Shown: positions 3,513 through 23,032 of the stretch, in pieces
Numbering within the stretch: the first letter of the stretch is position 1
How the letters are laid out: each line of letters opens with the position of its first letter
DNA from: a virus
Reading direction: 5' to 3' (one strand)
DNA: 31,390 bases
Virus record (IMG/VR): IMGVR_UViG_3300013099_000055
Span: 1 to 31,390 of that record
The notes under the pieces: model-generated
Database searches by the model: none
What the model was told of the DNA's origin: nothing
The model's input: only the letters and a program-made list of their open reading frames with translations
Translations under genes and position numbers: made by a program

Positions 3513-3728
3513 ATGACAACAACAAAAAGAGCGCCGGAAAAGCTGGACGTTAACGGGCTACCGGTTCGAAAGCGGATCACAAAAGGGGCTAATGAGTACA
3601 TTGGTTCAAGGCTTACCAGAGAAGAGAAAGACCTGATTTATGAGGCGGCTAAAAGCCTTAGGTTAACCATCGGCGCTTATATACTGGAAGCTTCCCTAGA
3701 GAGAGCCAAGGCGATGCGGGATGATTAA
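3513..3728 (+). CDS. small basic protein, ribbon-helix-helix-like
   Basis: 71 aa. The ATG at 3513 follows GAGGG with good spacing. The middle and C-terminal parts read as a short strand (NEYIGSRLT), then a helix (REEKDLIYEAAKSLRLT), then IGAYILEASLERA. This strand-helix-turn-helix layout, with the TREEKDLI motif, is typical of Arc/MetJ or DUF1778-like ribbon-helix-helix proteins. The N-terminus is a basic tail (KRAPEK, RKRITKG). As first gene of the rightward operon next to a palindromic promoter it could be an autoregulator; that role is inferred. Confidence 0.6.
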   Translation: MTTTKRAPEKLDVNGLPVRKRITKGANEYIGSRLTREEKDLIYEAAKSLRLTIGAYILEASLERAKAMRDD

Positions 3729-3975
3729 ACTCGGCGACGAAAGTGATGAAGAGCAACATCTACGCGGGTTGGCTGATAGAAGGTTTGAGCATAGCTTGAA
3801 GTCCTTATTCTTTATATATGAGGGTGATACATATCAGATTGAGGAGACTAGCTCTAACGAAGGCCGCTTTACCCTGTATCTACTACGTCCAGATAAAAAA
3901 AAGGCGCTTGTTAAATTGGATAAGTGTCAGAACATTTTGAGCTGGCTGTTCCATGGGGATTTTGACGGTGAGTGA
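3721..3975 (+). CDS. hypothetical phage protein
   Basis: 84 aa, overlapping the previous gene by 8 bases. Acidic N-terminus (DESDEEQ), then alternating strands: LFFIYEGDTYQIEE, RFTLYLLRPDKKKALVKL and CQNILSWLFHGDFD. It looks like a small beta-rich domain. Not recognised. Confidence 0.5.
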   Translation: MIKLGDESDEEQHLRGLADRRFEHSLKSLFFIYEGDTYQIEETSSNEGRFTLYLLRPDKKKALVKLDKCQNILSWLFHGDFDGE

Positions 3976-4159
3976 AAGAAAAGTAATTAAGTACCTGGCT
4001 GTTTATGAGTATGAACATGACAGGCTAAACCACAAGGTCAATCATCATTTAAAAGAAGGGATGGAGTTATACGGGAGCATATCTGTAACTAATTGCTATG
4101 ACGGCGATGGCATGGCCTATCAGCTTTATGTACAACCCATGGTGGAATATGATGTTTAA
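3953..4159 (+). CDS. DUF1737-like small protein, copy 1
   Basis: 68 aa. The core KVNHHLKEGMELYGSISVT fits the DUF1737-type pattern: a helix, L-x-x-G-W/M-E-L-Y-G, then a strand. A second member lies at 8567-8797. Both begin MGIL and share H/V-N-x-x-L-x-x-G-x-ELYG followed by an aromatic-rich YQ segment. That similarity supports the ATG at 3953 over the alternative GTG at 3968, even though the GTG has the better Shine-Dalgarno. Function of the family is unknown. Confidence 0.55.
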   Translation: MGILTVSERKVIKYLAVYEYEHDRLNHKVNHHLKEGMELYGSISVTNCYDGDGMAYQLYVQPMVEYDV

Positions 4160-4511
4160 AGTACCTGAAAGGTTTAGAGAAAGTGATGGAATAATGGGCA
4201 GCGATTCATCCATCGGCAACGCAGGCGTGTTTAATTTTCCATCTGTCATTAAGGGGCGCATGCTTCACGCGATAGCATCAGACGGCTCGGGTTATGACCA
4301 CGTGTCGGTTTACGCATCAAAGCATAACGAGCGGTACATACCGCGATGGGGTGACATGTGCTTAGTTAAGGATTTGTTTTGGGGTGAAGACGATACGGTT
4401 ATTCAATTTCACCCAAAGCATTCTGAATACGTGAACATAAACGAGTTTGTTCTTCACCTATGGCGAAAGCAGGGTGTGGAATATGAATTGCCACCAAGGA
4501 CTTTGATATGA
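4152..4511 (+). CDS. phage protein of the DUF7694 type
   Basis: 119 aa from the ATG at 4152, which has GGTGGA 5 bases upstream; the upstream in-frame ATG at 4098 lies within the previous gene. The central block HVSVYASKHNERYIPRWGDM then CLVKDLFWGEDDTVIQFHP then YVNINEFVLHLWR matches, from memory, a widespread phage family annotated DUF7694 (pattern W-x-x-M-C-x-I-K-x-L-F-F ... Q-x-H-P ... Y-V-N-x-H ... L-H-L-W). Biochemical role unknown. It ends in an ATGA overlap with the next gene. Confidence 0.65.
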   Translation: MFKVPERFRESDGIMGSDSSIGNAGVFNFPSVIKGRMLHAIASDGSGYDHVSVYASKHNERYIPRWGDMCLVKDLFWGEDDTVIQFHPKHSEYVNINEFVLHLWRKQGVEYELPPRTLI

Positions 4512-4690
4512 AATGGATTCTATTTATATGGTTATTTGGCGCGTATAGCGGAAGTCTTGACCACGTGGAATTTAAGACTAGAGAAGAGTGCGAATACGCA
4601 TTGAATGCAGTTAAGGTAAAGAGCAATGGGTTGCTTGCTCCTGCTATAGGCGGTGTTTGTGTGGAGGTTTCCGATGATAGATTGGGATGA
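4508..4690 (+). CDS. small exported or membrane-anchored protein
   Basis: 60 aa, starting in the ATGA overlap at 4508. The N-terminus MKWILFIWLFGAYSGS is a hydrophobic segment like a short signal peptide or anchor. The remainder, HVEFKTREECEYALNAVK then GVCVEV, has two cysteines spaced like a disulphide-bonded small periplasmic domain (F-x-T-x-E-x-C ... A ... C-V). Not recognised as a named family. Confidence 0.5.
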   Translation: MKWILFIWLFGAYSGSLDHVEFKTREECEYALNAVKVKSNGLLAPAIGGVCVEVSDDRLG

Positions 4691-4841
4691 GGTTTTTACA
4701 GAGGAAACTCTACATAAGGTTGTTGGTGTATGTGGTGCCGCTGTAGTAATTTCTTTGTCTGCTGTAATGTCAGTTGGGTGTATGGCCCTTGTTTGGATTA
4801 TGGTTTTTGGCTCTAGTTCAGGGTGTGAGGGTGCGGCATGA
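4674..4841 (+). CDS. small single-pass membrane protein
   Basis: 55 aa from the ATG at 4674, which has GGAGG six bases upstream; the in-frame ATG at 4653 lacks a ribosome-binding site. After an acidic N-terminus (MIDWDEVFTEE) comes one long hydrophobic stretch, residues 14-46 (VVGVCGAAVVISLSAVMSVG and following). The end is short and polar with a cysteine. Coupled on both sides by overlaps. Function unknown. Confidence 0.5.
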   Translation: MIDWDEVFTEETLHKVVGVCGAAVVISLSAVMSVGCMALVWIMVFGSSSGCEGAA

Positions 4842-5089
4842 AAATCAGCGAATTAAAAAAGGTGCTTGAACAAGCTGAAAATGAAGTCGGAGATTGCGAG
4901 GTGTTTCTTACGGATAGATATTCAAAATACCACGTTAAATGGGCTGATCTCTTTAACGGTGAACCTCACGTACAGAGCGGAGTGTACCTTAGAGTCGGCA
5001 AAAGATGGGGTGCGGAGTTATGGGGCGGCAAAATAGAACCTGTATGCGAAATGATAACGGACGGGGATGAACCTAAGGATGAAAAATGA
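4838..5089 (+). CDS. small phage protein, MKxSEL-type N-terminus
   Basis: 83 aa; GAGGG upstream and an ATGA overlap with the previous gene. The start MKISELKKVLEQAENEVGDC followed by EVFLTD fits the common phage pattern in which an N-terminal helix (M-K-x-S-E-L-I-x-x-L) is followed by D/G-D-x-x-V-x-V strands. It belongs with the genes at 5086, 5750, 6012 and 6206. No biochemical role is known to me. Confidence 0.55.
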   Translation: MKISELKKVLEQAENEVGDCEVFLTDRYSKYHVKWADLFNGEPHVQSGVYLRVGKRWGAELWGGKIEPVCEMITDGDEPKDEK

Positions 5090-5298
5090 GTGTAGGAGAG
5101 TTGATTGAAAAACTTGAATCTTTTGCTAAAGAGGCAGATATTTGCGTTTCAGGAAAGGAAGGGTACCTTCACCCTATCCATGACGTGAAATTAATGCTGG
5201 CTCAGGATGGGAGTGGCACGATTTGCATTCAGGCCAATCATTCTGAGGGTTTTATGAACTGTAGTGGAGAATTTGTGGTGCATGATGATACCAGATAG
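5086..5298 (+). CDS. small phage protein, MKxSEL-like family
   Basis: 70 aa, ATGA-coupled to the preceding gene. The N-terminus MSVGELIEKLESFAKEADIC keeps the helix and following strand of the MKxSELIE family in diverged form. The rest is beta-rich (VKLMLAQDGSGTICIQAN). Unknown function; placed here by similarity to its neighbours. Confidence 0.5.
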   Translation: MSVGELIEKLESFAKEADICVSGKEGYLHPIHDVKLMLAQDGSGTICIQANHSEGFMNCSGEFVVHDDTR

Positions 5299-5527
5299 AA
5301 CAAAACAAACGATTGATGATTACGTTAAGCACGGATGGAACCCAGGGGGTTTTGTAACGGCTGTTTTAGCAAACGACCTGATGAATTCTTTTGGGCGCGC
5401 TGATGAGGAAAACCAGGTTGCCATGCTTAGCATCGTAAAATACGTTTACAACAATACGCCAATGAGTTGTCACGGCAGTTATGAGGCAGTTAATGCGTGG
5501 CTCAAGCATGAGAGGCTAGGGGAGTAA
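5282..5527 (+). CDS. conserved phage protein (GGFVTAVLxNDL family)
   Basis: 81 aa from the ATG at 5282 (a second ATG is in frame at 5285). The motif HGWNPGGFVTAVLANDLMNS, then FGRADEENQ, then YNNTPMSCHGS and VNAWL is a recurrent small protein in tailed phages. I recognise the pattern (Y-V-x-x-G-x-x-P-G-G-F-L-x-A-V-L-x-N-D-L ... A-D-x-x-N ... G-S) but know no assigned function. It overlaps the end of the previous gene. Confidence 0.6.
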   Translation: MMIPDRTKQTIDDYVKHGWNPGGFVTAVLANDLMNSFGRADEENQVAMLSIVKYVYNNTPMSCHGSYEAVNAWLKHERLGE

Positions 5528-5532
5528 TGAAG

Positions 5533-5763
5533 ATGAAAGAACGTGAACCAGAATTTTACATTAACAAGACATTCATAGAGCTTATTATTGATAAAGTTAA
5601 ATCAAGAAAAGATTTTTTCGAGCGCGGTGAAAGTGTTGTTTATCCTGGCTCTAAAGAAGATTTTATTTTAGGCATAGAATACGCGCTGGTGCTTTTTGAA
5701 GAGTACAAGCTTTTCGCTGTGCGGCTAGACCATCCAGAGAGGGCGACTGATGAAAGCAAGTGA
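5533..5763 (+). CDS. hypothetical phage protein
   Basis: 76 aa from the ATG at 5533, preferred because GGAG at 5521-5524 is 8 bases away; the in-frame ATG at 5527 is only 2 bases from it. Charged and helical: NKTFIELIIDKVKSRKDFFE, then EDFILGIEYALVLFEEYKLF. Not recognised. Its last codons contain the start of the next gene. Confidence 0.45.
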   Translation: MKEREPEFYINKTFIELIIDKVKSRKDFFERGESVVYPGSKEDFILGIEYALVLFEEYKLFAVRLDHPERATDESK

Positions 5764-6025
5764 GCTGGACACGGTAAGAATGGTTGATGACAGAATTCAG
5801 AGCCTGGAAAGGCAAATAAAAGGGTTTGAAAATATTAATGATAAAGATGTTATTTACATCGCCGGTTATCTGGATGCGTTGAATCATTTAAAGCACGACT
5901 TAGGGTTCCTTAAGGTTTCAGCTGTCGTCGGTGGTGGAAGTGACACGCCATGCAATGAATCCGGCGGCTCTGGTGCGACTTCTAAGTATGGTGTAAAAAT
6001 AAGGTACACAGATGAAAGCGAGTGA
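5750..6025 (+). CDS. small protein beginning MKASEL, copy 1
   Basis: 91 aa. The first 17 bases of the gene, ATGAAAGCAAGTGAGCT, nearly match those at 6012 and 6206, and GAGAGGG lies upstream. After MKASEL the protein diverges: helical region MVDDRIQSLERQIKGFENIN, then IYIAGYLDALNHLKHDLGFL, then a Gly/Ser-rich linker and a short strand end. It looks like a coiled-coil dimer. The shared start is better explained by conserved translation signals or module exchange than by whole-gene duplication. Confidence 0.5.
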   Translation: MKASELDTVRMVDDRIQSLERQIKGFENINDKDVIYIAGYLDALNHLKHDLGFLKVSAVVGGGSDTPCNESGGSGATSKYGVKIRYTDESE

Positions 6026-6223
6026 ACTGATAGAAAGGCTGCAAAAATTGCCACCCGACATGCACGTGGGAGTTTTAGACCCACGGGAAAATTATTACAC
6101 TATTTGCGATAGAGATATTATTATCTCTTCAGTCTACGAGTATGACGATGATGAAAATGAGACTGAGATTCCGGCGGCCTTAATCTGCACTGAGGATGAT
6201 GACGAATGAAAGCGAGTGAACTA
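6009..6223 (+). repeat. direct repeat of MKASEL start sequence
   Basis: The 18-base block ATGAAAGCGAGTGAACT-x occurs at 6012 and 6206 (one difference at the last position) and in near form at 5750 (two differences). All three are gene starts inside the preceding gene's end. The identity is stronger at DNA level than the downstream proteins, suggesting exchange or constraint at this block. Confidence 0.6.
6012..6209 (+). CDS. small protein beginning MKASELIE, copy 2
   Basis: 65 aa, overlapping the previous gene by 14 bases. N-terminus MKASELIERLQKLPPDMHVG then VLDP is the classic form of this phage family: a helix, then L-P-P-D-x-x-V and a strand. Strongly acidic C-terminus (YDDDENETE and EDDDE). 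Near-identical in DNA to the start of 6206-6397 over about 18 bases. No recognised activity. Confidence 0.55.
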   Translation: MKASELIERLQKLPPDMHVGVLDPRENYYTICDRDIIISSVYEYDDDENETEIPAALICTEDDDE

Positions 6224-6397
6224 ATAGAAGAGATTCAAAAAACAATGAAAGAGCACGGAGATTTACCGGTGTTCATTTACGGTGACGGTAAGGTAAACGA
6301 GAACGCAAGAGATGTTTTGGTAAGCTACCAAGATAAGATAGAAATAACACCAGGGAGCGGGTTTCAAGGGTTTCACGAAGGTATCTATTTAGGGTAA
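6206..6397 (+). CDS. small protein beginning MKASELIE, copy 3
   Basis: 63 aa, ATGA-coupled at 6206-6209. N-terminus MKASELIEEIQKTMKEHGDL then PVFIYGDG, then strands ending EGIYLG. It is the last gene of the tiny-gene series and is followed by the structured leader of the replication initiator gene. Confidence 0.55.
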   Translation: MKASELIEEIQKTMKEHGDLPVFIYGDGKVNENARDVLVSYQDKIEITPGSGFQGFHEGIYLG

Positions 6398-6544
6398 AAG
6401 TACTTAGGCCGCTCCGATGAGAGCGACCTAAAGCTTTGTGTTTTCCGTACACATAAGTTATTCTCCTATTTCGAAAGTCAATTAAGCGGAATCCCCATTC
6501 CCTTAATCTGGCTCCACCACAATGGAACAAGGAAAGTATACCTC
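6398..6544 (+). promoter_or_regulatory. structured untranslated leader with two strong hairpins before the replication initiator
   Basis: No gene fits here. Hairpin 1 at 6404-6431: TTAGGCCGCTC pairs with GAGCGACCTAA (11 positions, one C-A mismatch) around loop CGATGA. The sequence AAGCTTTGTGTTTT follows, so it is a possible weak or attenuating terminator. Hairpin 2 at 6482-6506: TTAAG-C-GGAAT pairs with ATTCC-CTTAA around loop CCCC, with one bulged C. Between them TTCTCCT (within 6465-6475) could pair with the AAGGA ribosome-binding site near 6530. The pairings are read directly; attenuation or translational control is inferred. Confidence 0.5.
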
Positions 6545-7267
6545 ATGCCAGATCACGCTTCAATTGCAAATGCACTCTTAGCTTCTAACTTAAACCAAGA
6601 TAATCGTGAAGATATTCTTCAAGCGCTTCTGGATTCACTTTCAGTCAAGCAGCTTAGAGTTGCCCGACACATAATCACCTATGCAACTAAATCATGGGGC
6701 TTCTGCGTCAAGACTTATAAAATCATGTCCAGAGAACTTGGATGCTCAGCTAAAACGGTTGGGCGCACGGTTAGAATGCTTCTAAATTACCGCTTGGCGA
6801 CCGCAAAAGACGGTGGTTGTACAGCTAACAAAATATCAGTAACCAAAGAATTAATCAGCCTTTTTAATAAATGTCCCCGCAATGTCCCCGCAAATCGCCC
6901 CCATACCTTATATATAAAGAAAATGAATGAAGATGATTTTGATATTGTCTCGGACGTTGGGAAAGCCATGAAGGCTAGCGTAGAGCAGATTGACGCCGCT
7001 AATGCAGAGATAGCTAAGGCTAGACGTAACAATGTGCGTATAAGCTCCGTAGCGAGACTTAGCAGGTCTATCTTTCAAAGGGCATACAATCGGGCTAGGA
7101 AGGCGCTTAAGGCCGAGCAGAGGCAACAGAGGAAGGATGACGCTATTCTTGAGGCTCAACATCAGGCTAGGGAAAAGGAAAGCAGGGAAATGAGGGCAAA
7201 CAGAGCATCTCCCGAGAGCACGAAAGAACATTTAAGGAAACTCAGGGCGATGCTGACAGGGGGTTAG
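6545..7267 (+). CDS. replication initiator-like helix-turn-helix protein
   Basis: 240 aa, AAGGA upstream. Residues about 34-85 (KQLRVARHIITYATKSWGFC, then KIMSRELGCSAKTVGRTVRM) form a winged-helix type DNA-binding region like those at the N-terminus of phage O-like or DnaD-like initiators. The C-terminal half is long, basic and helical (ARLSRSIFQRAYNRARKALK then AEQRQQRK and many Glu/Arg residues), suited to nucleic-acid or helicase contact. The DnaB-like helicase gene follows within 2 bases, and no separate loader gene is visible. I infer that it recruits the helicase to an origin. No clear iteron array was seen inside the gene. Confidence 0.6.
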   Translation: MPDHASIANALLASNLNQDNREDILQALLDSLSVKQLRVARHIITYATKSWGFCVKTYKIMSRELGCSAKTVGRTVRMLLNYRLATAKDGGCTANKISVTKELISLFNKCPRNVPANRPHTLYIKKMNEDDFDIVSDVGKAMKASVEQIDAANAEIAKARRNNVRISSVARLSRSIFQRAYNRARKALKAEQRQQRKDDAILEAQHQAREKESREMRANRASPESTKEHLRKLRAMLTGG

Positions 7268-7268
7268 G

Positions 7269-8555
7269 ATGACCGAGTTAGAACAGGCGGTACTCGCATG
7301 CTGCCTTAGAAAAAAACATTTATTTATTTTGGCAACTAGCAAGATAAATTCCTCATTCTTCAAAAATGAAGCTCATGGGGAAATATTTGAAGCCATAGCA
7401 GAATACGCCAACAAGAACGCTAACACATGTTGGGATTCCACCTTGCTTGTAATCCACGTTTCAAAATTATCCGGGGTGGGTTCAAAAAATATAACTCAAA
7501 TTATTTCAGCTCATTATTCTGAAAGCGCACTAGATGAATATCTCGATATGATGGTGGTGGAAAATAATCTGGATAGCACCAGAAACTTTATTTTTGAGGC
7601 ATCCGCAATGCTTGAAGATGAAAGTTTGTCAGCTAAAGATATAAATACTTTTATAGCCGATGGGCTTTACAATATTATTTCCGGGGCTGCATCAAGAGCC
7701 GACGACCCACCCACAGAAAGCGAAATGCTAGCCACACTGTTTTCAAACATAGAAATGGCACAGGAAAACCCAGGTTATGGGAGAATCCCAACCGGGTTTG
7801 ATAGGCTTGATAAGCTAATTCTCGGGTATCGAAAGGGAACAATGAATATAATTGCTGCACCGTCCGGGCAAGGCAAAACAGCCTTCGCTTTAAACGTGGC
7901 TGCCAACATGATATTTAAAGCGCGTAAAAAAGTTTTATTTTTTAGCTTGGAAATGAGCAGGGACGATCTTGTTTTAAGAATAGCTTCTTCATTGTCAAAA
8001 GTACCGAGCACGAGGCTAGAGCTGGGAGAGCTAACAGATAAAGATTGGGAAAAGCTAACATCATGTGTCACGCCGATGATGAGCGGCATAACAGAATGCT
8101 TGAGAATATATGACAGCGGTACTGTTACAGTGCAGAGCATTAGAATGAACATAATGAAAGAGATGGCAAAGAAAGAGGTAGACGCTGTATTTATTGATTA
8201 TGTTGGGCTAATAGAGCCGAGCGATAGAAGAGAAAGCAGAGTTTCTCAGGTTTCCCAAATAACCAGGGAAATAAAAATAATGTCAGAGGATTTTAAAATA
8301 CCAATCATTCTGCTATGCCAGACGAATAGAAACATAGATTCTGATGTGAACCGAAAATCTCCCATATTATCCGATCTCAGAGAGTCATCAAGTATCGGCA
8401 ATGATGCTGATACAGTTCTGTTTATCATGCCAAGGTCGGGCGACGACTGGGTTAAAGACTTTCATCTTGTTAAAAATAGGCGTGGCGTAGTGGGGGATTT
8501 TGCATTACAGTTTGACGGCAAAACAACAACATTTATTAACGAGCCAGTTTATTAG
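7269..8555 (+). CDS. DnaB-like replicative helicase
   Basis: 428 aa. N-terminal DnaB helical domain (residues 1-100; begins MTELEQAVLACCL). RecA-like core with Walker A APSGQGKT (197-204), H1a VLFFSLEM (222-229), Walker B VDAVFIDYVGL (304-314), motif H3 LLCQTNRN (348-355) and H4 LSDLRESSSIGNDADTVLF (367-385), including the conserved arginine and D-x-D. Family members are hexameric ATP-driven 5'-3' helicases at replication forks. Slightly shorter than E. coli DnaB (471) mainly in the N-domain and linker. It starts 2 bases after the initiator gene, so the pair forms a replication module. Confidence 0.93.
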   Translation: MTELEQAVLACCLRKKHLFILATSKINSSFFKNEAHGEIFEAIAEYANKNANTCWDSTLLVIHVSKLSGVGSKNITQIISAHYSESALDEYLDMMVVENNLDSTRNFIFEASAMLEDESLSAKDINTFIADGLYNIISGAASRADDPPTESEMLATLFSNIEMAQENPGYGRIPTGFDRLDKLILGYRKGTMNIIAAPSGQGKTAFALNVAANMIFKARKKVLFFSLEMSRDDLVLRIASSLSKVPSTRLELGELTDKDWEKLTSCVTPMMSGITECLRIYDSGTVTVQSIRMNIMKEMAKKEVDAVFIDYVGLIEPSDRRESRVSQVSQITREIKIMSEDFKIPIILLCQTNRNIDSDVNRKSPILSDLRESSSIGNDADTVLFIMPRSGDDWVKDFHLVKNRRGVVGDFALQFDGKTTTFINEPVY

Positions 8556-8566
8556 AAGGAATTTAA

Positions 8567-8797
8567 ATGGGTATTCTAAATTACGAGCCAGAAAAAAAAA
8601 TTGCCAGATACAGGGTTGAGTGCGGACATAGCAACGGGCTTGAGTGTGACGAGAGCGAGTCAAGAGAAGGTGAAGAGAAACTTGCTTATCATATTAATAC
8701 GTGTTTAGAGCATGGATGGGAGCTGTACGGAGAGCCGTTTACAGATACCTACGGGCATTTTTATCAAGCCATGGTTTTATGCATAGCGGAAAATTAG
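8567..8797 (+). CDS. DUF1737-like small protein, copy 2
   Basis: 76 aa, AAGGA upstream, 11 bases after the helicase gene. Shares with 3953-4159 the MGIL start, the helix-x-N-x-x-L-E-H-G-W-ELYG core (residues 45-58) and a final FYQAMV strand. It carries an extra acidic segment (ECDESESREGEEK) near residues 25-40. Two diverged copies lie about 4.6 kb apart in the same operon. Unknown function. Confidence 0.55.
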   Translation: MGILNYEPEKKIARYRVECGHSNGLECDESESREGEEKLAYHINTCLEHGWELYGEPFTDTYGHFYQAMVLCIAEN

Positions 8798-8808
8798 GAG
8801 AGTGACAC

Positions 8809-8979
8809 ATGGAAGTTTACAAGCCAGCGGCTGAAGTTTTACAAATATTAAAGCCGTTTATTATGGGCGCTCTGGAAAAAACCAGAACATGCCCAGACAA
8901 ACATAAGCAAAGGATTAAGAAAGCATACGGCGATGTCATCGAAGAAACATATGTACTTTTACGAAGTGAGAAATGCTGA
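8809..8979 (+). CDS. 56-residue hypothetical protein
   Basis: 56 aa, short enough to be missed by common length cut-offs. A strong GGAG site (in TTAGGAGAGTGACAC) precedes the ATG at 8809, and the frame is open to TGA at 8977-8979. The sequence is helical and basic in the middle: VYKPAAEVLQILKPFIMGAL, then CPDKHKQRIKKAYGDVIEE. Not recognised. It overlaps the next gene by about 29 bases. Confidence 0.55.
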   Translation: MEVYKPAAEVLQILKPFIMGALEKTRTCPDKHKQRIKKAYGDVIEETYVLLRSEKC

Positions 8980-9196
8980 GTATACCAGCGAAATTGCCGC
9001 TGCCAGAGAAACGAACGCCATTTTATTTTTCGAGCCGGTGTTCAGCTCAAAATGGGAAACTGGGTTTTTCAAAAGGCATGTAATATGGATGGATGCGTTT
9101 AACAATATTAAATCGGAAATATTTAAAGGGAAGTCTAATGGGAAATTTGCGCAAGCCGAATCCTGCGGTAAACGATATCGAGATAGATCCAAGTGA
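8951..9196 (+). CDS. hypothetical protein, start uncertain
   Basis: 81 aa from the ATG at 8951 (weak GAAG upstream); an ATG at 8933 is also in frame. MYFYEVRNAEYTSEIAAARE, then ILFFEPVFSSKWETGFFKRH reads like a compact alpha/beta protein. The last 20 residues overlap the following gene and look less coding-like. Unrecognised; part of the tail of the early operon. Confidence 0.4.
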   Translation: MYFYEVRNAEYTSEIAAARETNAILFFEPVFSSKWETGFFKRHVIWMDAFNNIKSEIFKGKSNGKFAQAESCGKRYRDRSK

Positions 9197-9350
9197 AGAG
9201 ATAATACGCTGTAAGCTTGAGAAGATGGGTATCTACGCACCCCTGCGCTCTGCCTTTAAAGATGAAGAGGATTATCAAGAAGCGCTGCATGAATATAATT
9301 TAAAGCGTGAGCCGTTTTACTACGAGATAGTTACCGCCGCAGATGAATGA
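9138..9350 (+). CDS. hypothetical acidic protein
   Basis: 70 aa from the ATG at 9138, with AAAGGGAAG directly upstream; the longer frame to 9093 lacks a site. Acidic and helical (EIDPSEEIIRCKLEKMG, DEEDYQEALHEYNLKREP). Last protein gene before the small-RNA region. Not recognised. Confidence 0.5.
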   Translation: MGNLRKPNPAVNDIEIDPSEEIIRCKLEKMGIYAPLRSAFKDEEDYQEALHEYNLKREPFYYEIVTAADE

Positions 9351-9372
9351 CATGGCGAAAGCAAAATAGGTG

Positions 9373-9381
9373 TGGCATAAT
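9373..9381 (+). promoter_or_regulatory. extended -10 promoter for small RNA 1
   Basis: TGGCATAAT at 9373-9381 fits the extended -10 form TGnTATAAT with one mismatch. No good -35 is visible, which is acceptable for an extended -10. The context GTGTGGCATAAT closely resembles GTGTGGTATAAT at 9952-9963, so both may be read by the same holoenzyme or controlled together. The predicted RNA start is about 9387-9389. Confidence 0.5.
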
Positions 9382-9386
9382 CCCCT

Positions 9387-9510
9387 TAGTCCTATCTTGG
9401 ACGGTATGGACTAGAAGGCCGAAAGGTGTTCGTAACACAATACTCTAAGTAGGGTACATCGTAGCTTGTACCGAATGGCTGGTTTCTAATCCTTTCCGGC
9501 CATTTTTTTA
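9387..9510 (+). ncRNA. candidate structured small RNA 1 (about 120 nt)
   Basis: No ORF covers this segment, but paired elements do. Hairpin 1: TAGTCCTATC (9387-9396) with GGTA-T-GGACTA (9403-9413), loop TTGGAC. Hairpin 2: GTGTT/AACAC, 9426-9438. Hairpin 3: GGTACA/TGTACC, 9453-9472. Hairpin 4 is the terminator at 9476-9502. An alternative long-range helix, GGCCGAAAGG (9417-9426) with CCTTTCCGGCC (9491-9501, one bulge), would exclude the terminator hairpin. An extended -10 promoter sits just upstream and a T7 tract just downstream, so this is a complete transcription unit. It is not a tRNA and matches no RNA family known to me. Confidence 0.65.
9476..9509 (+). terminator. intrinsic terminator of small RNA 1
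   Basis: Stem TGGCTGG (9476-9482) with CCGGCCA (9496-9502), one G-U pair, a 13-base loop, then seven T (9503-9509). It also ends the rightward early operon. Its loop sequence is nearly repeated in the second terminator at 9638-9666. Confidence 0.8.
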
Positions 9511-9523
9511 TTCCCAAAACCCA

Positions 9524-9666
9524 TTGCGGTTTGACAATCATTATTGTAGTATTAACGGGTGTTCTTTCCTTGAACTTGAGATAAAAATCTATTCCTGTAG
9601 AAAATATATCAAACTCCCGTTCATGGTACTCCCTAAGCGCTGGTTCCTATCCGTTCCAGCGTTTTT
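9524..9666 (+). ncRNA. candidate small RNA 2, related to small RNA 1 at its 3' end
   Basis: No gene here. A possible promoter is TTGCGG at 9524-9529, a 17-base spacer and TAGTAT at 9547-9552. A perfect TTGACA also lies at 9531-9536 but has no correctly spaced -10. Downstream are GTTC/GAAC (9561-9575), AACGGG/CCCGTT (9554-9559 with 9616-9621) and a strong terminator hairpin. The 3' end (GGTAC, then CTGG-TT-Y-CTA-TCC) is similar to that of small RNA 1, and both contain GGTGTTC near the 5' side. The transcript start is uncertain; it may instead be a read-through product. Confidence 0.45.
9638..9666 (+). terminator. intrinsic terminator of small RNA 2
   Basis: Perfect 6-bp stem CGCTGG (9638-9643) / CCAGCG (9656-9661), 12-base loop TTCCTATCCGTT, then TTTTT at 9662-9666. 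The T tract lies only on the + strand side, so it does not serve the leftward gene that ends at 9670. Confidence 0.8.
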
Positions 9667-9669
9667 AAA

Positions 9670-9915
9670 CTAAGATAGCTTATCTTGCTGTAGCACATTT
9701 ACGCGCTCAAACACTTCTTCAATCGTATCAAAGTAATCAACTACCTTGTTTAGCTTTTCATCTTTAAAGCTTAGGCTGTAGCAAGTGCCCGTAAAAACAT
9801 CGTCGTGGGATTTCATCTTGTAAAGCACGCCATCCAGTCCAAAAACATATTCAGACCCCTTTTTACCGTAGTGCTCAAAAGCATCAGATTCAATTTTTTC
9901 AACTTCCTTTAGCAT
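9670..9915 (-). CDS. hypothetical protein
   Basis: 81 aa from the ATG at 9915, preferred because AAGG and GGG lie just upstream; the frame extends to 9951 through the control region. Acidic N-terminal helix (LKEVEKIESDAFEHYGKKG), then strands (YVFGLDGVLYKMK, CYSLSFKD) and a C-terminal helix (TIEEVFERVNVLQQDKLS). Not recognised. It is the only leftward gene between two rightward units and is transcribed away from the 11-base repeat region. Confidence 0.5.
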   Translation of the reverse strand: MLKEVEKIESDAFEHYGKKGSEYVFGLDGVLYKMKSHDDVFTGTCYSLSFKDEKLNKVVDYFDTIEEVFERVNVLQQDKLS

Positions 9916-9929
9916 AATTACCCTTGTCC

Positions 9930-9963
9930 TTGTGTTACAGTTGTGGTACACGTGTGGTATAAT
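9930..9963 (+). promoter_or_regulatory. promoter with three 11-base tandem repeats
   Basis: Units TTGTGTTACAG (9930-9940), TTGTGGTACAC (9941-9951) and GTGTGGTATAA (9952-9962) abut, one per helical turn. The third contains a perfect extended -10, TGGTATAAT (9955-9963). A -35-like GTTACA (9934-9939) lies 18 bases upstream. Same-face repeats overlapping the promoter are typical of a cooperative operator. It probably controls the rightward pair 9999-10684 and, on the other strand, the gene ending at 9915. Confidence 0.6.
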
Positions 9964-9998
9964 AGCACAATATCAACAAGCGTATACATGGGTTTAGA

Positions 9999-10295
9999 GT
10001 GTCAAAGCTATATAAATCAAAATCGGACTTGGAAATAATCGTAGAGCAATATCGTGACTATGAGCTTTATATCGCGATGGATTTTAATTCGTTCAACGGT
10101 ACATGCGAAGTATCCGTTTTTCATTCGAGATTTGCGCCGGTCTATCACGAGGCTAAATTTTCCGGGAGCCGGGGAATTGAGGAAGCTACGCAATGGCTGC
10201 ACGATAATTTTTCCGATTTCTATAAAGAATCTCGCGCTTATTATTTTGATGGAAAAGGGGCAACGGAATGCCAAGAAACAGAGAAGAAGAAATAA
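9999..10295 (+). CDS. hypothetical protein with GTG start
   Basis: 98 aa from GTG at 9999 (reads MSKLYKSKSDLEIIVEQYRD). No convincing Shine-Dalgarno, and the predicted transcript start is only about 30 bases upstream. Contains strands (YELYIAMDF, CEVSVFHSRF), an amphipathic helix (IEEATQWLHDNFSDFYK) and a basic end. Not recognised. It overlaps the nuclease gene by 28 bases, suggesting co-expression. Confidence 0.5.
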   Translation: MSKLYKSKSDLEIIVEQYRDYELYIAMDFNSFNGTCEVSVFHSRFAPVYHEAKFSGSRGIEEATQWLHDNFSDFYKESRAYYFDGKGATECQETEKKK

Positions 10296-10684
10296 ATCAG
10301 GAAATGGTCGTAGAATGGTTTGCACGGCAATACCCTAAATATCAAAATCTATTATTTCACATCCCAAATGGCCAGAATGTTGGAAGAATTCGAGGCTATA
10401 CTCTGCAACGAATGGGGCTTGTGGCCGGTATGCCGGACTTAATGCTTGCAGTACCGTGGGCATGCAAAACTCACATGGGTAAAAATGTTGATGAATCAAA
10501 CGGTCTTTACCTGACTTGTGGGCTGTTTATCGAAATGAAAGCAAAGAAAGGTGTGCTTAGGCAGTCTCAGCGCGCAATTCACAGTGAACTTGAGGCACAG
10601 AATTATAAAGTCGTAACTTGCTATTCTTTTGAGTCTGCAAAGTCGGGGATAAACGAATATCTCCGGGGCAATAGTTATTCATAA
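10268..10684 (+). CDS. VRR-NUC domain endonuclease
   Basis: 138 aa. Layout of the VRR-NUC (PD-D/ExK) family: N-terminal helix with E/Q (REEEINQEMVVEWFARQYPK), HIPNGQNVGRIRGYTLQRMG with LVAGMPDL (D57), then CGLFIEMKAKKG (E89, K91) and QSQRAIH with Q101. These give the metal-binding D...ExK plus the following glutamine. Stand-alone phage VRR-NUC proteins are structure-selective (Holliday-junction-like) nucleases in the cases studied; cleavage here is inferred. Start in GGAAAAGGGG context. The 3' end overlaps the convergent leftward gene by 10 bases. Confidence 0.85.
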   Translation: MPRNREEEINQEMVVEWFARQYPKYQNLLFHIPNGQNVGRIRGYTLQRMGLVAGMPDLMLAVPWACKTHMGKNVDESNGLYLTCGLFIEMKAKKGVLRQSQRAIHSELEAQNYKVVTCYSFESAKSGINEYLRGNSYS

Positions 10685-13093: not shown

Positions 13094-13187
13094 GTCTTAA
13101 TCCTTATTAAGTATATTTATGTTTGTCTCTGTCTCTAATCTGAAACCATTGTCTCACAGACGTATAACAAGATACATGTCATTCGTC
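13091..13187 (-). promoter_or_regulatory. leftward control region, copy A of a duplicated promoter/leader
   Basis: Matches 14282-14377 in two blocks: the ribosome-binding block at 13091-13110 (CTTAATCCTTATTAA, + strand) and the upstream block at 13135-13187, ending ATGTCATTCGTC. On the leftward strand it reads an extended -10-like TGTTATACG and then GACAATGG. The core CCATTGT-CTC-ACAG (13146-13159) resembles the palindromes at 3459-3473 and 14338-14351. It drives the operon starting at 13093. Confidence 0.55.
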
Positions 13188-14284: not shown

Positions 14285-14377
14285 TGTCTTAATCCTTATT
14301 AATGTTGCTGTTGTTGCTGCTTGTCTTTAACTTGAGACCATTGTAGCACAAATGTATAACAAAGATATGTCATTCGT
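14282..14377 (-). promoter_or_regulatory. leftward control region, copy B of a duplicated promoter/leader
   Basis: Same two blocks as copy A: 14282-14302 (CTTAATCCTTATTAA) and 14325-14377 (ending ATGTCATTCGTC). The leftward strand carries extended -10-like TGTTATACA and TACAATGG. The core CCATTGT-AGC-ACAA is at 14338-14351. It drives the operon 14284 to ardA. The differences between copies fall mainly in the spacer between the two blocks. Confidence 0.55.
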
Positions 14378-14758: not shown

Positions 14759-15278
14759 GAAGCGCCGTGATGTAAGACAGCTTGAATATTTTAATGAGGT
14801 TATGGCAAAGAAAAGGGCAGGTGCTCCAAGCTTCCCTTACACCGAAAGTGTAGCTGATGAGATATGCAGATTAGTGTCAATAAAGACTGTTAGCTTAGAC
14901 AGAATCATACGCGAAAACCCACACTTGCCGAGTAAAGATGTCATTTATACATGGCGTGCTTACAACAAAGAATTTGGCGATAAGTATATGAAAGCTAAGA
15001 TAACTCAAGCGCAGCTATTAGCGGACGAAGTGCTGGAAATATCAGACGATTCTACACACGATGAAATGCAAGACGCGAACGGAAATTGGAAACTGAACTC
15101 TGAATATGTAGCTCGCTCTAAGCTTAAAATACACACAAGACAGTGGTTAGCTGGCAAGCTGCACCCAAGGCTCTACGGCAATCAACTGTTAGAGCAAACA
15201 AGCGACATCACAAACACGCTCAAAGAACTTAAAGAAAGCATCGACGATATTAAAAAAGACGATGAAAAAGACTATTAG
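14646..15278 (+). CDS. terminase small subunit, Sf6 gp1 type
   Basis: 210 aa from the ATG at 14646 (GGGAG 10 bases upstream; a TTG at 14637 is too close to that site). The first 45 residues are an unusual Lys/Ala/Pro tail. The family part begins at about residue 60: ESVADEICRLVSIKTVSLDR, DVIYTWRAYNKEFGDKYMKA, QAQLLADEVLEISDD, and ARSKLKIHTRQWLAGKLHPR then LYGN. That order matches Sf6-type small terminases, which bind the pac site as a ring and regulate the motor. It overlaps both neighbours. Confidence 0.88.
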   Translation: MEKSKTKAKKKAPSKAKPKQKVAAKPKPKKAVAKKEVKKRRDVRQLEYFNEVMAKKRAGAPSFPYTESVADEICRLVSIKTVSLDRIIRENPHLPSKDVIYTWRAYNKEFGDKYMKAKITQAQLLADEVLEISDDSTHDEMQDANGNWKLNSEYVARSKLKIHTRQWLAGKLHPRLYGNQLLEQTSDITNTLKELKESIDDIKKDDEKDY

Positions 15279-16830
15279 CGAAGCGGACGAAATAGCGGAC
15301 TTACGGTCTAAGTTATGGGGCAGCTTTCTTTTGTTCACGCAAACATTCTTTCCGCTTGTGACAGGCCGTAAGTTTCTGATATCTCAACCCGTGGGGCGTG
15401 AGTCTCACTTTATAACGATAGCGCGAGAGCTAACACTTGCAGCGCGAATGCAATCACCGAGTGTGCTTATCAATGTGCCACCCGGTTACGGCAAGAGCGT
15501 ATTATTGTCTATGTGGGTAGCATGGACTATGAGCCGTTACCCCGATTCGCAGTATCTTTACATATCTTATGCCAAGGCACTGGCAGCTAAACACACGGCG
15601 TTTGTGCGTGACATTGTTATGTGCAGGCAGTATGGCGACATCTTTGGCATACATATCAAGCATGATGTCCGTGGGCGTGAGAAGTTCCAGGTTAAGCAAG
15701 GTGGTATGGTATCAGCGTTCGGCGCATCAGGTGCAGTGACGGGGCAAGATGCAGGGATGCCGGGCGAGAGTCGATTCACCGGCGCGGTTATCATCGATGA
15801 CCCCCACAAACCCGATGAAGTTCACAGTGACACGATGCGACAGACTGTTATTGATAACTATCGCGAGACTATTCTACAGCGGCCACGTGATATCAATGTT
15901 CCGGTTATATTTATTGGGCAGCGGTTGCATGAGGATGACCTTGCAGCGTTCATGCTAAGCGGAAAAGATGAGCGTACTTATAAGCCAATCATATTGCAAT
16001 CAATAGACGTAGCGGGCAATGCACTGTACCCGGAAGTTAGTCCCATTGGATTACTGAGGGAGAAGCAAGACAAGAATCCATACGTTTTTAGCTCCCAGTT
16101 TCAGCAAGAGCCGGTACCATCTGGGGGCGCGCTGTTCAAAGAGGATTACTTTCTTATGCTCGATGATGAGCCAGAAATCATATCAACGTTTATCACGGCT
16201 GACACAGCGGAAACAGATAAGACTTACAACGATGCAACAGTGTTCAGCTTTTGGGGTGTCTATAAGATTGTAGAGGGCGGCCAAGAGACCGGCGCTTATG
16301 CATTGCATTGGCTTGATTGCCTTGAGGTTAGGGTAGAACCAAAGGACTTGGAGACAGAGTTCAGGAGTTTTTATTCAGACTGCATGCTTCATTCTGTTAA
16401 GCCTCTTCATGCCGCCATAGAAAAGAAATCAACAGGCGTAACGTTATGTAGCGTACTGTCTAACATGCGCGGGTTAAACATCATTGAAGTCAAAAGAACC
16501 CGGGCATCAGGTTCAAAAGCGGTTAGATACTTGGAGATGCAACCCATACTGTCAGCTAGGCTAGTAACACTCACGCGCGGCGCTAAGCACGCAGAGAAAT
16601 GCGTCAAGCACATGCTCAAGATTACGGCGAACGACACACACAGATGGGACGATATCGCGGACACATTATATGATGCTTGCAAGATAGCGTTGATTGACAA
16701 GACAACAGGATTGCTTGGTATCAACCAAACCGACACGGCGAACGATGCTATTTTAGATAAGCTTTCAAACAGACTAAGCACAACACTCGCGGCTAGAAAG
16801 AGGATTCAAAATCATGGTATTAGCAGCTAA
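15262..16830 (+). CDS. terminase large subunit (packaging ATPase and nuclease)
   Basis: 522 aa. ATPase: Walker A VPPGYGKS (residues 72-79), Walker B GAVIIDD (174-180), coupling-motif region around IFIGQRLHEDD (216-225). RNase H-like nuclease: TADTAE with D314, HAAIEKK with E387, and RWDDIADTLYDA with D463/D464 and D467. Packages DNA into the prohead through the portal and makes headful or cohesive cuts; strategy not determined here. It overlaps the small subunit by 17 bases and the portal by 17 bases, giving a tightly coupled packaging cassette. Confidence 0.95.
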   Translation: MKKTISEADEIADLRSKLWGSFLLFTQTFFPLVTGRKFLISQPVGRESHFITIARELTLAARMQSPSVLINVPPGYGKSVLLSMWVAWTMSRYPDSQYLYISYAKALAAKHTAFVRDIVMCRQYGDIFGIHIKHDVRGREKFQVKQGGMVSAFGASGAVTGQDAGMPGESRFTGAVIIDDPHKPDEVHSDTMRQTVIDNYRETILQRPRDINVPVIFIGQRLHEDDLAAFMLSGKDERTYKPIILQSIDVAGNALYPEVSPIGLLREKQDKNPYVFSSQFQQEPVPSGGALFKEDYFLMLDDEPEIISTFITADTAETDKTYNDATVFSFWGVYKIVEGGQETGAYALHWLDCLEVRVEPKDLETEFRSFYSDCMLHSVKPLHAAIEKKSTGVTLCSVLSNMRGLNIIEVKRTRASGSKAVRYLEMQPILSARLVTLTRGAKHAEKCVKHMLKITANDTHRWDDIADTLYDACKIALIDKTTGLLGINQTDTANDAILDKLSNRLSTTLAARKRIQNHGISS

Positions 16831-18982
16831 ACACAAAGACAAATTGGAAAAGATTAGAGAGGATGTGACGCAATCGCATCAATACTTTAGAAAAAACATT
16901 GATAGATACAAAGAGTTTGTTAAGTTTGTATTTGACACAGCTTTAAGCGATGAAGACCTGGCAGCGTTGGAAGCATTGCAGAAACCTAACATTGAATTCA
17001 ACGTATTGGAATCGTATGTAAGCAGGCTACGCGGTGAGTTCGCAGACAATGAGCCAGGAATCTTAGTGTCGGCGGCTGATGGCACACCGTCCGAGGTGTT
17101 GGATGAAAAGTTCTTTAAGACCATGAAGGTGATTGAAGAACACATCCGCGAGATGTTCGACAACTCTAAAAACGATTCACTTCAGAACAAGATATTCAAC
17201 GATGTGCTTGCAGGTGGTTATAGTGTTGTTGGCATTTACACTGACTACATCAACGATATGTCATTTGAGCAAAATATTTATGTTGAGCGTGTATTCGACC
17301 CCACATTGACCGGCTTTGATCCAATGGCGAGAGACAGTCACAAAGGTGATGGCCGTTATTGCTTTGAAATTATCCCAATGACCCGCGACGACTTCGAAAA
17401 TGAGTTCGGCGCAGAGCTAACAAAGAACATGACATTCACCAAAACCGGCGGCTCTGAGTTCAACTGGAGTTACAAGGCTCAAGAGCAAGAGATTGTAATG
17501 CTCGTAGATTATTACGAGAAGATTGCCGAGCGTAAAAAGATTGTAAAACTATCGAATGGCGCAGTGATTCTAAAAGAACATTATCAGGAAATGGCCGACC
17601 ACATCAATCAATCTGGCATGCTTCGAGCTGCACCGATTGTTGTTAGCGAACGCTGGACATCGCTTGAAACGATACACAGATATAGAACATGTGGGACTGA
17701 AGTGTTAGAGCACAAGCTTACAGCGTACAAACAGCTGCCTTTGGTTTTTGTTGATGGCAATTCAATGGTTGTTTATGATAAGGGTTCTGGTGTTAGCCAG
17801 CAAATGACACGCCCTTACGTCTATCACGCGAAAGGCATTCAAAAGCTTAAGAACTTCGCAGGCCAAACAGTCGGCAACGAAATTGAAAATATGAGCATGA
17901 CAACATGGGTAACATCATTAGACTCAATACCGGAGAAGTATTTGGAAGCTCACCTTAACCCACAGCACGCACAAACGCTTGTCTATAATGAGTTTTACAA
18001 AAGCAATCCAGATATAAAGCTAACCCCACCGCGTGAGGCTCAACGCACACCTACACCCCCTATTGTTATCGAAACATTTATGGGTAGTGATGCGACAATG
18101 CAAAGCGTTCTTGGCTCGTTCGACGCTCAGCAAGGCCACATTGGAGCCAACGACCTGTCAGGCAAAGCGATTCAGATGGGCGCAATGCAATCAAACACAT
18201 CAGCGATGCCATATTTTATGGGCTACATTAACGGGATGAATAGAGTTGCTCAGATTATTATCGACCTAATTCCAAAGTTCTACATCACCCCGCGCACATT
18301 GCCAATCAAGAAAGACAACGGAAAGCGTAGCTATGTAGTAGCCAATGATGAGGGGCAAGAGGATGCAGTGTTTTTAAATTATGACCCTAACAGCCTTAAC
18401 ATTTCCGTTGAAGTTGGCGTTAATACCAAAATGCAAAAGCAAATAGCGCTTGAGACTATCGTCACACTGATGGGTGCTAGTGAGCTATTCAGCGAGTTCA
18501 TGAACACGGAAGGATTGGAAGTTCTGCTTGAAAACATTGATATCCGTGGCATTGAAGAGCTAAAAGAGCGCTCGAAACAGTTCATGGAACAAAAGCGTGC
18601 GATGCAACAGGCTGCATTCCAAGCTGAGCAAGAGAAAGCAGGCCAACCGAGCGAAGCTGATAAGCTTATTATGGCTGAACTGGCTATCGAAAAAGACAAG
18701 ATAGAGCAGAAACGAGAGGAAGCTGAAGGTAAGCAAAGCATAGCCGTGGCTGATGTTGCAATTAAAGAGCAAAAAGCCTATCAAGATTTTATTGGCATGA
18801 TGGCGAAAATTGAAAATGATGCTACCAAAAATGAAATGACCGAGCAAAAAGCATTGGCAGATACCGCGCAAAACGCAGTTAAAAACGCAATTGAAGTGGC
18901 CAAGGCTAAAAGTTCAGCGGACGGCAAGCACAAGATGGCTGATGGCAGCATGATGTATGACAATGAAATGCCACAAGGCTAA
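16814..18982 (+). CDS. P22-type portal protein
   Basis: 722 aa, close to P22 gp1 (725). Typical content: the N-terminal helix-rich start (HQYFRKNIDRYKEFVKFVFD), VLESYVSRLRGEF, a clip/wing region with YRTCGTEVLEHKLTAYKQLP, FVDGNS, and the conserved segment HIGANDLSGKAIQMGAMQSN. The C-terminal 120 residues are Glu/Lys/Gln/Ala-rich and helical, consistent with the barrel and crown extension of P22 portals. Forms the dodecameric DNA channel at one vertex. GAGG upstream; overlaps terL. Confidence 0.9.
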   Translation: MVLAAKHKDKLEKIREDVTQSHQYFRKNIDRYKEFVKFVFDTALSDEDLAALEALQKPNIEFNVLESYVSRLRGEFADNEPGILVSAADGTPSEVLDEKFFKTMKVIEEHIREMFDNSKNDSLQNKIFNDVLAGGYSVVGIYTDYINDMSFEQNIYVERVFDPTLTGFDPMARDSHKGDGRYCFEIIPMTRDDFENEFGAELTKNMTFTKTGGSEFNWSYKAQEQEIVMLVDYYEKIAERKKIVKLSNGAVILKEHYQEMADHINQSGMLRAAPIVVSERWTSLETIHRYRTCGTEVLEHKLTAYKQLPLVFVDGNSMVVYDKGSGVSQQMTRPYVYHAKGIQKLKNFAGQTVGNEIENMSMTTWVTSLDSIPEKYLEAHLNPQHAQTLVYNEFYKSNPDIKLTPPREAQRTPTPPIVIETFMGSDATMQSVLGSFDAQQGHIGANDLSGKAIQMGAMQSNTSAMPYFMGYINGMNRVAQIIIDLIPKFYITPRTLPIKKDNGKRSYVVANDEGQEDAVFLNYDPNSLNISVEVGVNTKMQKQIALETIVTLMGASELFSEFMNTEGLEVLLENIDIRGIEELKERSKQFMEQKRAMQQAAFQAEQEKAGQPSEADKLIMAELAIEKDKIEQKREEAEGKQSIAVADVAIKEQKAYQDFIGMMAKIENDATKNEMTEQKALADTAQNAVKNAIEVAKAKSSADGKHKMADGSMMYDNEMPQG

Positions 18983-19006
18983 CTTTGACAACAGGAAAAT
19001 TAATGC

Positions 19007-19354
19007 ATGAGCGATTTCGACAGGATATTGGAGATAGCGGAAGCGTGCCACGAGGTGAATTCAGCATATTGCACGGTGGTAGGCGACAAGGTGATTCCGT
19101 GGAAAGGTATGGGCATAGGGCTGAGGGCGTCTATTGTGTCGGGCGTTCAGGGAGCGCTTGGCGGGACTACACCGCGACAGTCGCACACAAACTGGCTGGC
19201 GAATCGAGAGGAGTTAGGCTGGGTTGTTGGGGCGCGTGACGATAAGGCAAAAACACATCCTTGCATGGTTCCATACGATGAGCTGCCAACGAGCCAGAAG
19301 GCAAAAGATAAGATATTTTTGGCGGTTGTTGAGGGGTTACGGGGGGATTTATGA
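19007..19354 (+). CDS. RyR-domain protein
   Basis: 115 aa, AGGA upstream. Near-complete RyR (ryanodine receptor) domain: IAEACHEVNSAYC (residues 10-22), VIPWKG, RQSHTNWLANREELGWVVGA, then KTHPCMVPYDELPTSQKAKD and the final helix IFLAVVEGL. RyR domains occur as stand-alone phage and bacterial proteins; their ligand is not established to my knowledge. Its position between portal and scaffold is unusual for a P22-like late operon. ATGA overlap with the next gene. Confidence 0.85.
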   Translation: MSDFDRILEIAEACHEVNSAYCTVVGDKVIPWKGMGIGLRASIVSGVQGALGGTTPRQSHTNWLANREELGWVVGARDDKAKTHPCMVPYDELPTSQKAKDKIFLAVVEGLRGDL

Positions 19355-19641
19355 ACGAAAATTATATTAAGAATCTGATATTGGAAAATCTAGGGCAGTC
19401 GATAAAGGTAGTTAGAGACAGGCATTTTGCGACCCAAAAGGATATATACATTCTTGTCGTGGGTGGCTCACAGGTCATGAACATTGCAATCGAGGATGCA
19501 GACCTACATGGAGACCCGATGAACCTTACCGACCAGGTAGAGGAAAACTTCGATATTGCCAAACGCTTTGCCAGGCATATAACCGATGAAGTAACACGAG
19601 ATTACGCCGTTCTATCGTCTGTTGGGGGTGGTGGAGCATGA
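19351..19641 (+). CDS. hypothetical protein
   Basis: 96 aa, ATGA-coupled on both sides. Strand-rich start (SIKVVRDRHFATQKDIYILV, VMNIAIEDADLHGD), a helix (EENFDIAKRFARHITDEVTR) and a Gly-rich tail. Not recognised. One of three unassigned genes inserted between portal and scaffold. Confidence 0.5.
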   Translation: MNENYIKNLILENLGQSIKVVRDRHFATQKDIYILVVGGSQVMNIAIEDADLHGDPMNLTDQVEENFDIAKRFARHITDEVTRDYAVLSSVGGGGA

Positions 19642-20027
19642 TATTTAAGCTATGGGTATTGGCGATTGGGGTAACGATTATATTTCTCTTTTTTGCTATC
19701 GACACAGAGGCACGCAGCTCAAAAGGCGGCGCGTCTAGGTCTGTTAGGCATAGTTCGACTCCCAAAAGAGGACACAACCCGCCTAAAAAGCAGGATTCAC
19801 AGCCTAAAAAGGAAGCCTCAGCACAGCCAACCGAGGTTCACCATCATCATCATGAAGCGCCGAAGCAAAGCGGTAATCTAGCCTCATCTGTCCTAACCGG
19901 AATGGCCGCTGGTTATGCTGGCAGTGCTATCCACGACCATCTGTCAAAAGATAAAGTGGCTGAAACTGCGCCTATCTCCACGGAAAATGCGCCTATCTCC
20001 GCCGAAAGTTCTTGTTCAGCTGAATGA
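19638..20027 (+). CDS. membrane-anchored or exported histidine-rich protein
   Basis: 129 aa. One hydrophobic N-terminal segment (residues 2-21, IFKLWVLAIGVTIIFLFFAI), which could be a signal peptide (cleavage near TEARS) or an anchor. Next is a basic, Pro/Lys-rich low-complexity region, then five consecutive histidines (VHHHHHEAPK), a Gly/Ala-rich amphipathic segment (SSVLTGMAAGYAGSAIHDHL) and a Ser/Ala/Glu tail with a tandem APIS-TENAPIS-AES repeat. The layout resembles small cell-surface glycine-zipper proteins. Expressed with virion genes; role unknown. Confidence 0.55.
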   Translation: MIFKLWVLAIGVTIIFLFFAIDTEARSSKGGASRSVRHSSTPKRGHNPPKKQDSQPKKEASAQPTEVHHHHHEAPKQSGNLASSVLTGMAAGYAGSAIHDHLSKDKVAETAPISTENAPISAESSCSAE

Positions 20028-20149
20028 ATTTGCCTTAGATAGTACCTTGGTGTTAGCATTGGGGTACTGTCATAGTCAGGTAAATATGCGGTTACTCGCC
20101 GAAAAGAGGAAATCACCGTTACGGGGTTAATAGTTAGTGGGTTTAATTA

Positions 20150-20944: not shown

Positions 20945-20984
20945 CAAACATCCTCAGCACCTAAATTAATTTTAAGGTGATGAC

Positions 20985-22223: not shown

Positions 22224-22295
22224 GCGCTGAGTTATTCAGGGTTTATTACAATGCCCCGGTTCGCTGGGGTTGCGTGCATGATGAGGTGAAAATAA

Positions 22296-23003: not shown

Positions 23004-23032
23004 AACACTGATATAACCAGGAATAATTGCAA

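Follow-up and report, generated by a model that had tools for sequence, protein, structure and literature searches.

The largest internal gap in the genome of an uncultivated phage holds one, and probably two, tandem short non-coding RNA units, each with a similar terminator at its predicted end. These units, RNA1 and RNA2, follow one another on the plus strand at the 3' end of what looks like an early operon, and we give their existence as non-coding units with the predicted transcripts roughly even chances. In function, they may be small regulatory RNAs. The window, meaning the whole stretch of DNA that was analysed, is a viral record of 31,390 bases in which 58 genes were called. The features of the gap are as follows:

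9370 to 9381, plus strand: extended -10 element (GTGTGGCATAAT), recognised by its sequence and ranked 50th among 2324 scored sites
9388 to 9509, plus strand: RNA1, a predicted non-coding transcript of about 120 nt, from the fold of 9384-9513, Rfam-negative
9387 to 9413, plus strand: 5' hairpin of RNA1 in the minimum-energy fold, in competition with a longer 5' helix extending to 9452
9453 to 9472, plus strand: GGTACA/TGTACC hairpin of RNA1 in the minimum-energy fold of 9384-9513
9473 to 9509, plus strand: terminator T1, with a 10-bp stem (9473-9482/9496-9505) and a T-run at 9503-9509
9544 to 9629, plus strand: body of RNA2, a three-way junction closed by AACGGG/CCCGTT; 9544-9634, without the terminator, has z -2.86 (2 of 200 shuffles)
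9635 to 9666, plus strand: terminator T2, with a stem at 9635-9643/9656-9664 and a T-run (9662-9666) of just 5 T
9392 to 9646, minus strand: open frame of 84 codons, coding score 5.6, with ATG, GTG and TTG absent before 9541

The proteins of the record include a P22-type portal, a terminase, a major head protein, a DnaB-type helicase and a VRR-NUC protein, which identify it as a tailed phage. No close isolate was found among deposited phages, where the portal and terminase matches all lie below 60% identity. The plus-strand genes at 3513-9350 look like an early or replication operon. They are followed by the gap (9351-9669), by a convergent minus-strand gene (9670-9951) and by a plus-strand gene (9999-10295). 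The gap does measure 319 bases, as the original prediction had stated; it is the biggest internal gap among the 58 called genes, exceeded solely by the contig end (30713-31390). The accompanying claim that it contains no plausible protein gene is borne out on the plus strand, where a coding signal is absent, but not fully on the minus strand, which carries the 84-codon frame. Over the whole gap, the plus strand folds better than the minus strand (z -2.83 versus -0.73, with 60 shuffles each).

The top-scoring promoter of the window (GTTACA-18-TGG-TATAAT, 9934-9963) is located upstream of gene 9999. Part of it falls within the start of the divergent gene 9951(-), and it contains the palindrome ACACGTGT; judging from these features, this site may be a control region.

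The intrinsic terminator claimed at the end of RNA1 is present as T1, the sole match with a U-rich tail in a scan of both strands of the whole window that allowed loops of 3-16 bases and required 6 or more T among the 8 bases that follow the stem. T1 is listed there in two nested versions, with no other match in the window, and a standard terminator scan covering loops of 3-8 only returned none in 8500-10500. The loop of T1 comprises 13 nt (9483-9495, TTTCTAATCCTTT), and its stem has pair probabilities of 0.99-1.00 in the full RNA1.

T2 has a loop of 12 nt (9644-9655, TTCCTATCCGTT) and resembles T1 in both stem and loop. When the two are aligned over 29 columns, their score is reached by 7 of 2000 shuffles, and the same likeness is seen as a repeat (D1), in an alignment (A3) and as a match of the RNA model R1. 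It is confined to the terminator part of RNA1 and RNA2. In a search of the window and 99 loci (1.19 Mb), the second-best match is T2 (E 8.9) for model R1 and the 3' part of RNA1 (E 1.4) for model R2. These values are not significant alone; what counts is that the two sites lie 161 bases apart. Between the stems, U-G in one corresponds to U-A in the other and G-C to C-G, so that pairing is retained, and the loop letters are alike. Such changes would be consistent with duplication of a module whose loop is in use, as far as a single two-sequence comparison goes. The second unit and the terminator likeness, both missed in the original prediction, offer a better argument than folding alone for a gap built from RNA units.

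The second folded unit spans 9544-9668, just downstream of RNA1. The original prediction had drawn its limits at 9373-9510, where the RNA1 unit indeed lies, but these coordinates stop short of RNA2. The segment 9540-9674 forms a three-way junction plus terminator (-32.9 kcal/mol, z -4.20, 0 of 200 shuffles), and the two units folded together reach z -4.70 (0 of 200). In a folding scan of both strands (20 shuffles per segment), 9541-9660 is third of 1044 segments and 9421-9540 ranks 42nd. RNA1 (9384-9513) also folds better than shuffled sequences (z -2.96, with 2 of 200 as good); its 5' part minus the terminator gives z -1.56 (10 of 200), which indicates that its folding advantage comes largely from the terminator. 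Because 13 of the 1044 segments fall below z -3, mostly over called genes, and because another gap (6398-6544) folds as well, folding alone proves little.

That other gap precedes gene 6545-7267, which has a weak match to replication-initiation families, and folds with z -3.36 (1 of 200 shuffles). An Rfam search of it at E up to 5 gave no match, and it is possibly a leader or origin element.

Of three hairpins described earlier within RNA1, those at 9387-9413 and 9453-9472 occur in the minimum-energy fold, while 9426-9438 is an inverted repeat absent from it. If a start at 9388 is assumed, the hairpin 9387-9413 is replaced by the longer 5' helix; the 5' domain has two near-equal folds, and the choice between them is set by the assumed start. 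RNA1 also contains a GTG-started frame of 8 codons (9426-9452) with AAGG (9415-9418) upstream at the usual distance, which by its sequence is probably a chance occurrence.

The extended -10 promoter proposed for RNA1 exists as a sequence element at 9370-9381, but its quality appears middling. Its best -35 sequence, TGGCGA, agrees with the consensus at 3 of 6 positions, and its rank is only 50 of 2324 in a scoring by base frequencies. The pattern TGNYATAAT occurs 3 times in the window, with 3.2 occurrences expected; since it is as common as in shuffles, the -10 box alone is no evidence for a promoter. The 12-base sequence GTGTGGYATAAT has two exact copies in the window, namely the RNA1 box and 9952-9963 before gene 9999, and this pattern, shared only with the latter site, speaks in favour of the RNA1 promoter. 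With up to 2 mismatches, it has 3 matches in the window versus 4.7 expected, which is no enrichment. Transcription of RNA1 would presumably start at about 9388, according to the distance rule that we assume for an extended -10 element. For RNA2, promoter scoring gave no convincing promoter. This absence, the poor -35 sequence and the chance frequency of the -10 pattern all count against the tandem-unit reading. The complete transcription unit described originally stands as a prediction as regards the extended -10 element, the folded body and the strong terminator. When RNA1 is compared with a phage intergenic small RNA that has its own promoter and its own terminator, the terminator is clear, the promoter is middling and a weak minus-strand frame is present.

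The tandem-unit reading draws on the size of the gap, on T1 as the sole terminator match, on the folding of RNA2 and of both units together, on the fold excess of the plus strand, on the T1/T2 likeness and the model cross-matches, on the well-spaced promoter-like box and on the lack of plus-strand coding. According to this reading, each of the two units would combine a folded body and, downstream of it, an intrinsic terminator whose loop of 12-13 nt is pyrimidine-rich. RNA1 (about 9388-9509) would probably be transcribed from the extended -10 promoter in front of it, and early-operon transcripts would release it as well, as their 3' end. RNA2 (about 9544-9666) would probably arise when transcription reads through T1 or starts at a weak promoter. 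T1 and T2 would stop early transcription ahead of the convergent gene 9670-9951, and the short RNAs, shielded by their 3' hairpins, would most likely persist. If they act at all, the likeliest route would be antisense pairing via the exposed terminator loops, a suggestion we make tentatively and consider unlikely to be correct.

A simpler account, which is doubtful yet deserves serious consideration, is that T1 and T2 merely terminate the early operon ahead of the convergent gene, a double stop being safer than a single one. Neither the folds nor the -10-like box would then have a role, and T2 would be a diverged copy of T1 or a convergent structure. The location between a plus-strand operon and a convergent gene speaks for such an account, and the resemblance of the two terminators, the modest folding of the RNA1 body without its terminator and the middling promoter agree with it. 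Termination does not, however, need 12-13-nt loops of similar letters, nor does it explain why the body of RNA2 still folds well once its terminator is left out, and a gap of 319 bases would be wasteful for a compact genome.

Coding on the minus strand appears improbable. The frame 9392-9646(-) covers both RNA units, and it could encode a small protein, or be the remnant of one, downstream of gene 9670-9951, with incidental hairpins. Its 84 codons are open, and its score of 5.6 exceeds the 95th percentile of 52 null frames (4.8). This score is nevertheless below the largest null frame (6.7) and below all 20 called small genes tested (8.2 to 24.2), it falls to 0.0 from 9541 on, and the usual start codons are absent before that position. 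Searches of phages, PHROGs and Pfam gave no match for the frame, and IMG/VR gave an identical contig alone.

That contig (IMGVR_UViG_3300013101_000089, 100% identical) is also the only homologous sequence found for the gap in phage, plasmid, IMG/VR and species-genome searches; blastn of the region against phages and plasmids gave no match. The absence of a known RNA family, claimed at the outset, is confirmed by an Rfam 15 search of the window, with 0 matches at gathering score and no sub-threshold match in the region better than E 2.7. In the literature, no description of this element was found in the partial texts consulted. Besides the identical contig, IMG/VR contains 6 loci matching the helicase at 28-32%, 29 loci matching the VRR-NUC protein at 26-40% and 78 loci matching the terminase at up to 64% (79 kept in all). 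The next-best 26 terminase loci (L040-L065) have 55-64% identity, and tblastn of the 58 window proteins against them found structural genes as well as the small proteins encoded next to the terminase; for the early part, the sole match is the VRR-NUC protein, at 26%, in L048 and L065. In IMG/VR, the identical contig is also the sole match for the minus-strand frame, for the loop pattern and for the three small proteins encoded next to the RNAs. Against the terminase-related loci, blastn of 9301-9700 gave nothing better than E 1.6 beyond identical copies; short or truncated sequences are common among these loci, and the early region may fall outside what they cover.

The structural genes (15262-24619) have relatives at about 30-64% identity in the IMG/VR contigs L040-L065, and the early region is matched solely by the identical contig or distantly. 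On sequence grounds, the record would belong to a group of mosaic phages that lacks a close isolate.

The RNA models R1 and R2, run against 99 of 122 loci (all except L001, L002, L009, L039 and L104-L122), gave one match outside the window, that of R2 in L012 (E 8.2), and none in 25 whole related records at E up to 1. Each model consists of two identical rows, that is, of one sequence, and such empty searches say little. The loop pattern has 2 matches in species genomes, neither of them followed by a T-run, and these are taken as probable chance matches. The lack of a diverged relative in these searches weighs against the tandem-unit reading, as do the weak E-values of the cross-matches and the lack of significant phage targets for the loops.

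The search for such targets began from sequence complementarity. The T1 loop contains UAAUCCUU, which is complementary to AAGGAUUA, an 8-mer with 5 occurrences in the window, where 1.5 are expected and 5 of 100 shuffles reach the same number. One of these sites is accounted for by the T1 loop itself, one is at 26204, one is located 15 nt ahead of the ATG in the leader of 8933, and two end 4-5 nt before the ATG of the minus-strand genes 13093 and 14284. The leaders of these two genes also have AATAAGGATTAAGACA in common, directly before the ATG (13094-13111 and 14285-14303), as if a ribosome-binding site might have been copied. Complementarity to the T1 loop reaches 8-9 nt in 3 of the 58 phage leaders. 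Among 13-mers of the window containing TCCT plus at least 6 T, 67 of 553 reach 8 nt in two or more of the 58 leaders, a count that covers two or more where the T1 loop has three. The T2 loop attains at most 6 nt of complementarity in the 58 leaders, and the loop-leader duplex energies are no lower than those of shuffled loops. The candidate phage targets of the loops among the 58 leaders are not above the null, and the pairing of the T1 loop with two ribosome-binding sites is a lead that failed its significance test. The full version of this idea is distinctly improbable: a tandem sRNA pair with a common terminator module, whose 12-13-nt loop doubles as a pairing seed, in which UAAUCCUU of RNA1 masks the AAGGAUUA ribosome-binding sites upstream of 13093(-) and 14284(-). 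The terminator of the early operon would in this way, as that operon ends, silence the operon on the opposite strand.

The pairing idea rests on analogy with terminator-loop pairing in LhrC and with the UC-rich stretches of the NmsR RNAs. LhrC of Listeria is a group of multicopy sRNAs in which a CU-rich motif of the terminator loop is described as pairing with the Shine-Dalgarno region, in the accessible part of the report (PMC4132741). As described there, LhrC has three UCCC sites and a demonstrated target, whereas UCCC is absent from the T1 and T2 loops and their pairing is hypothetical; Rfam shows no relation of RNA1 or RNA2 to LhrC. NmsRA and NmsRB of Neisseria are, in the available sections of their description, sibling sRNAs encoded in tandem within a single intergenic region, with exposed stretches that are UC-rich (PMC5362039). 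The predicted RNA1 and RNA2 share this arrangement, but the siblings are reported to be 70% identical over their length (PMC5362039), while RNA1 and RNA2 are alike in the terminator part only.

The nearest phage parallel is sRNA1 and sRNA2 of PAK_P3, a virulent Pseudomonas phage (NC_022970), which excerpts of the report present as RNAs of about 100 nt detected by RNA-Seq, with unknown function (PMC4933390). The same excerpts state that, as of 2016, descriptions of small RNAs from virulent phages were few, those of T4 being without known function. In both phages, two short non-coding RNAs, here predicted ones, are intergenic, and the PAK_P3 regions are neighbouring. However, as far as these excerpts go, the PAK_P3 sRNAs lie beside tRNA genes, are separated by a gene and were seen as transcripts (PMC4933390), while RNA1 and RNA2 are predictions. 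Alignment of the two pairs gave chance-level similarity.

Another comparison concerns sRNA-Xcc1 (RF02221), whose long-range GGCCG/CGGCC helix and ACAAUAC sequence align with the region. This candidate was rejected as being at chance level (14.5 bits where the gathering score is 53, and E 2.7 in a scan of 101 bases), and sRNA-Xcc1 has no match in the whole record at E up to 10.

It is very improbable that both loops derive from tRNA T-arms and that the units are decayed tRNA-like elements. Both loops are within 2 edits of a T-arm consensus, and so are other sequences, with 33 such places in the window. An 11-nt T-loop stretch is reported for PAK_P3 sRNA2 in the accessible text (PMC4933390). Against this, ARAGORN finds no tRNA or tmRNA, a tRNA model that was positive in 14 of 14 control genomes gives nothing at E up to 10, the PAK_P3 alignment offers no support, and the comparison was made post hoc.

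The two-state behaviour suggested originally, and with it a riboswitch or attenuator reading in which the helix 9417-9426/9491-9501 would act as an anti-terminator controlling read-through, is hardly credible: the helix exists as a 10-bp complementarity with one bulge, but it has a probability of 0.0007, costs 6 kcal/mol to force, never exceeds 0.07 at 15 chain lengths during synthesis, is equalled in 43 of 1000 shuffles of the 5' region and in 17 of 305 segments elsewhere in the window, and offers no anti-terminator of comparable stability, and the next plus-strand gene (9999) comes only after a minus-strand gene.

The tandem units are probably ordinary in kind, being orphan phage non-coding RNA units, two in number, whose terminators look related. 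Their present standing is that of an orphan prediction in an uncultivated phage. As two compact units with related terminators, they would provide a simple test case for the use of a phage terminator loop as an antisense seed.
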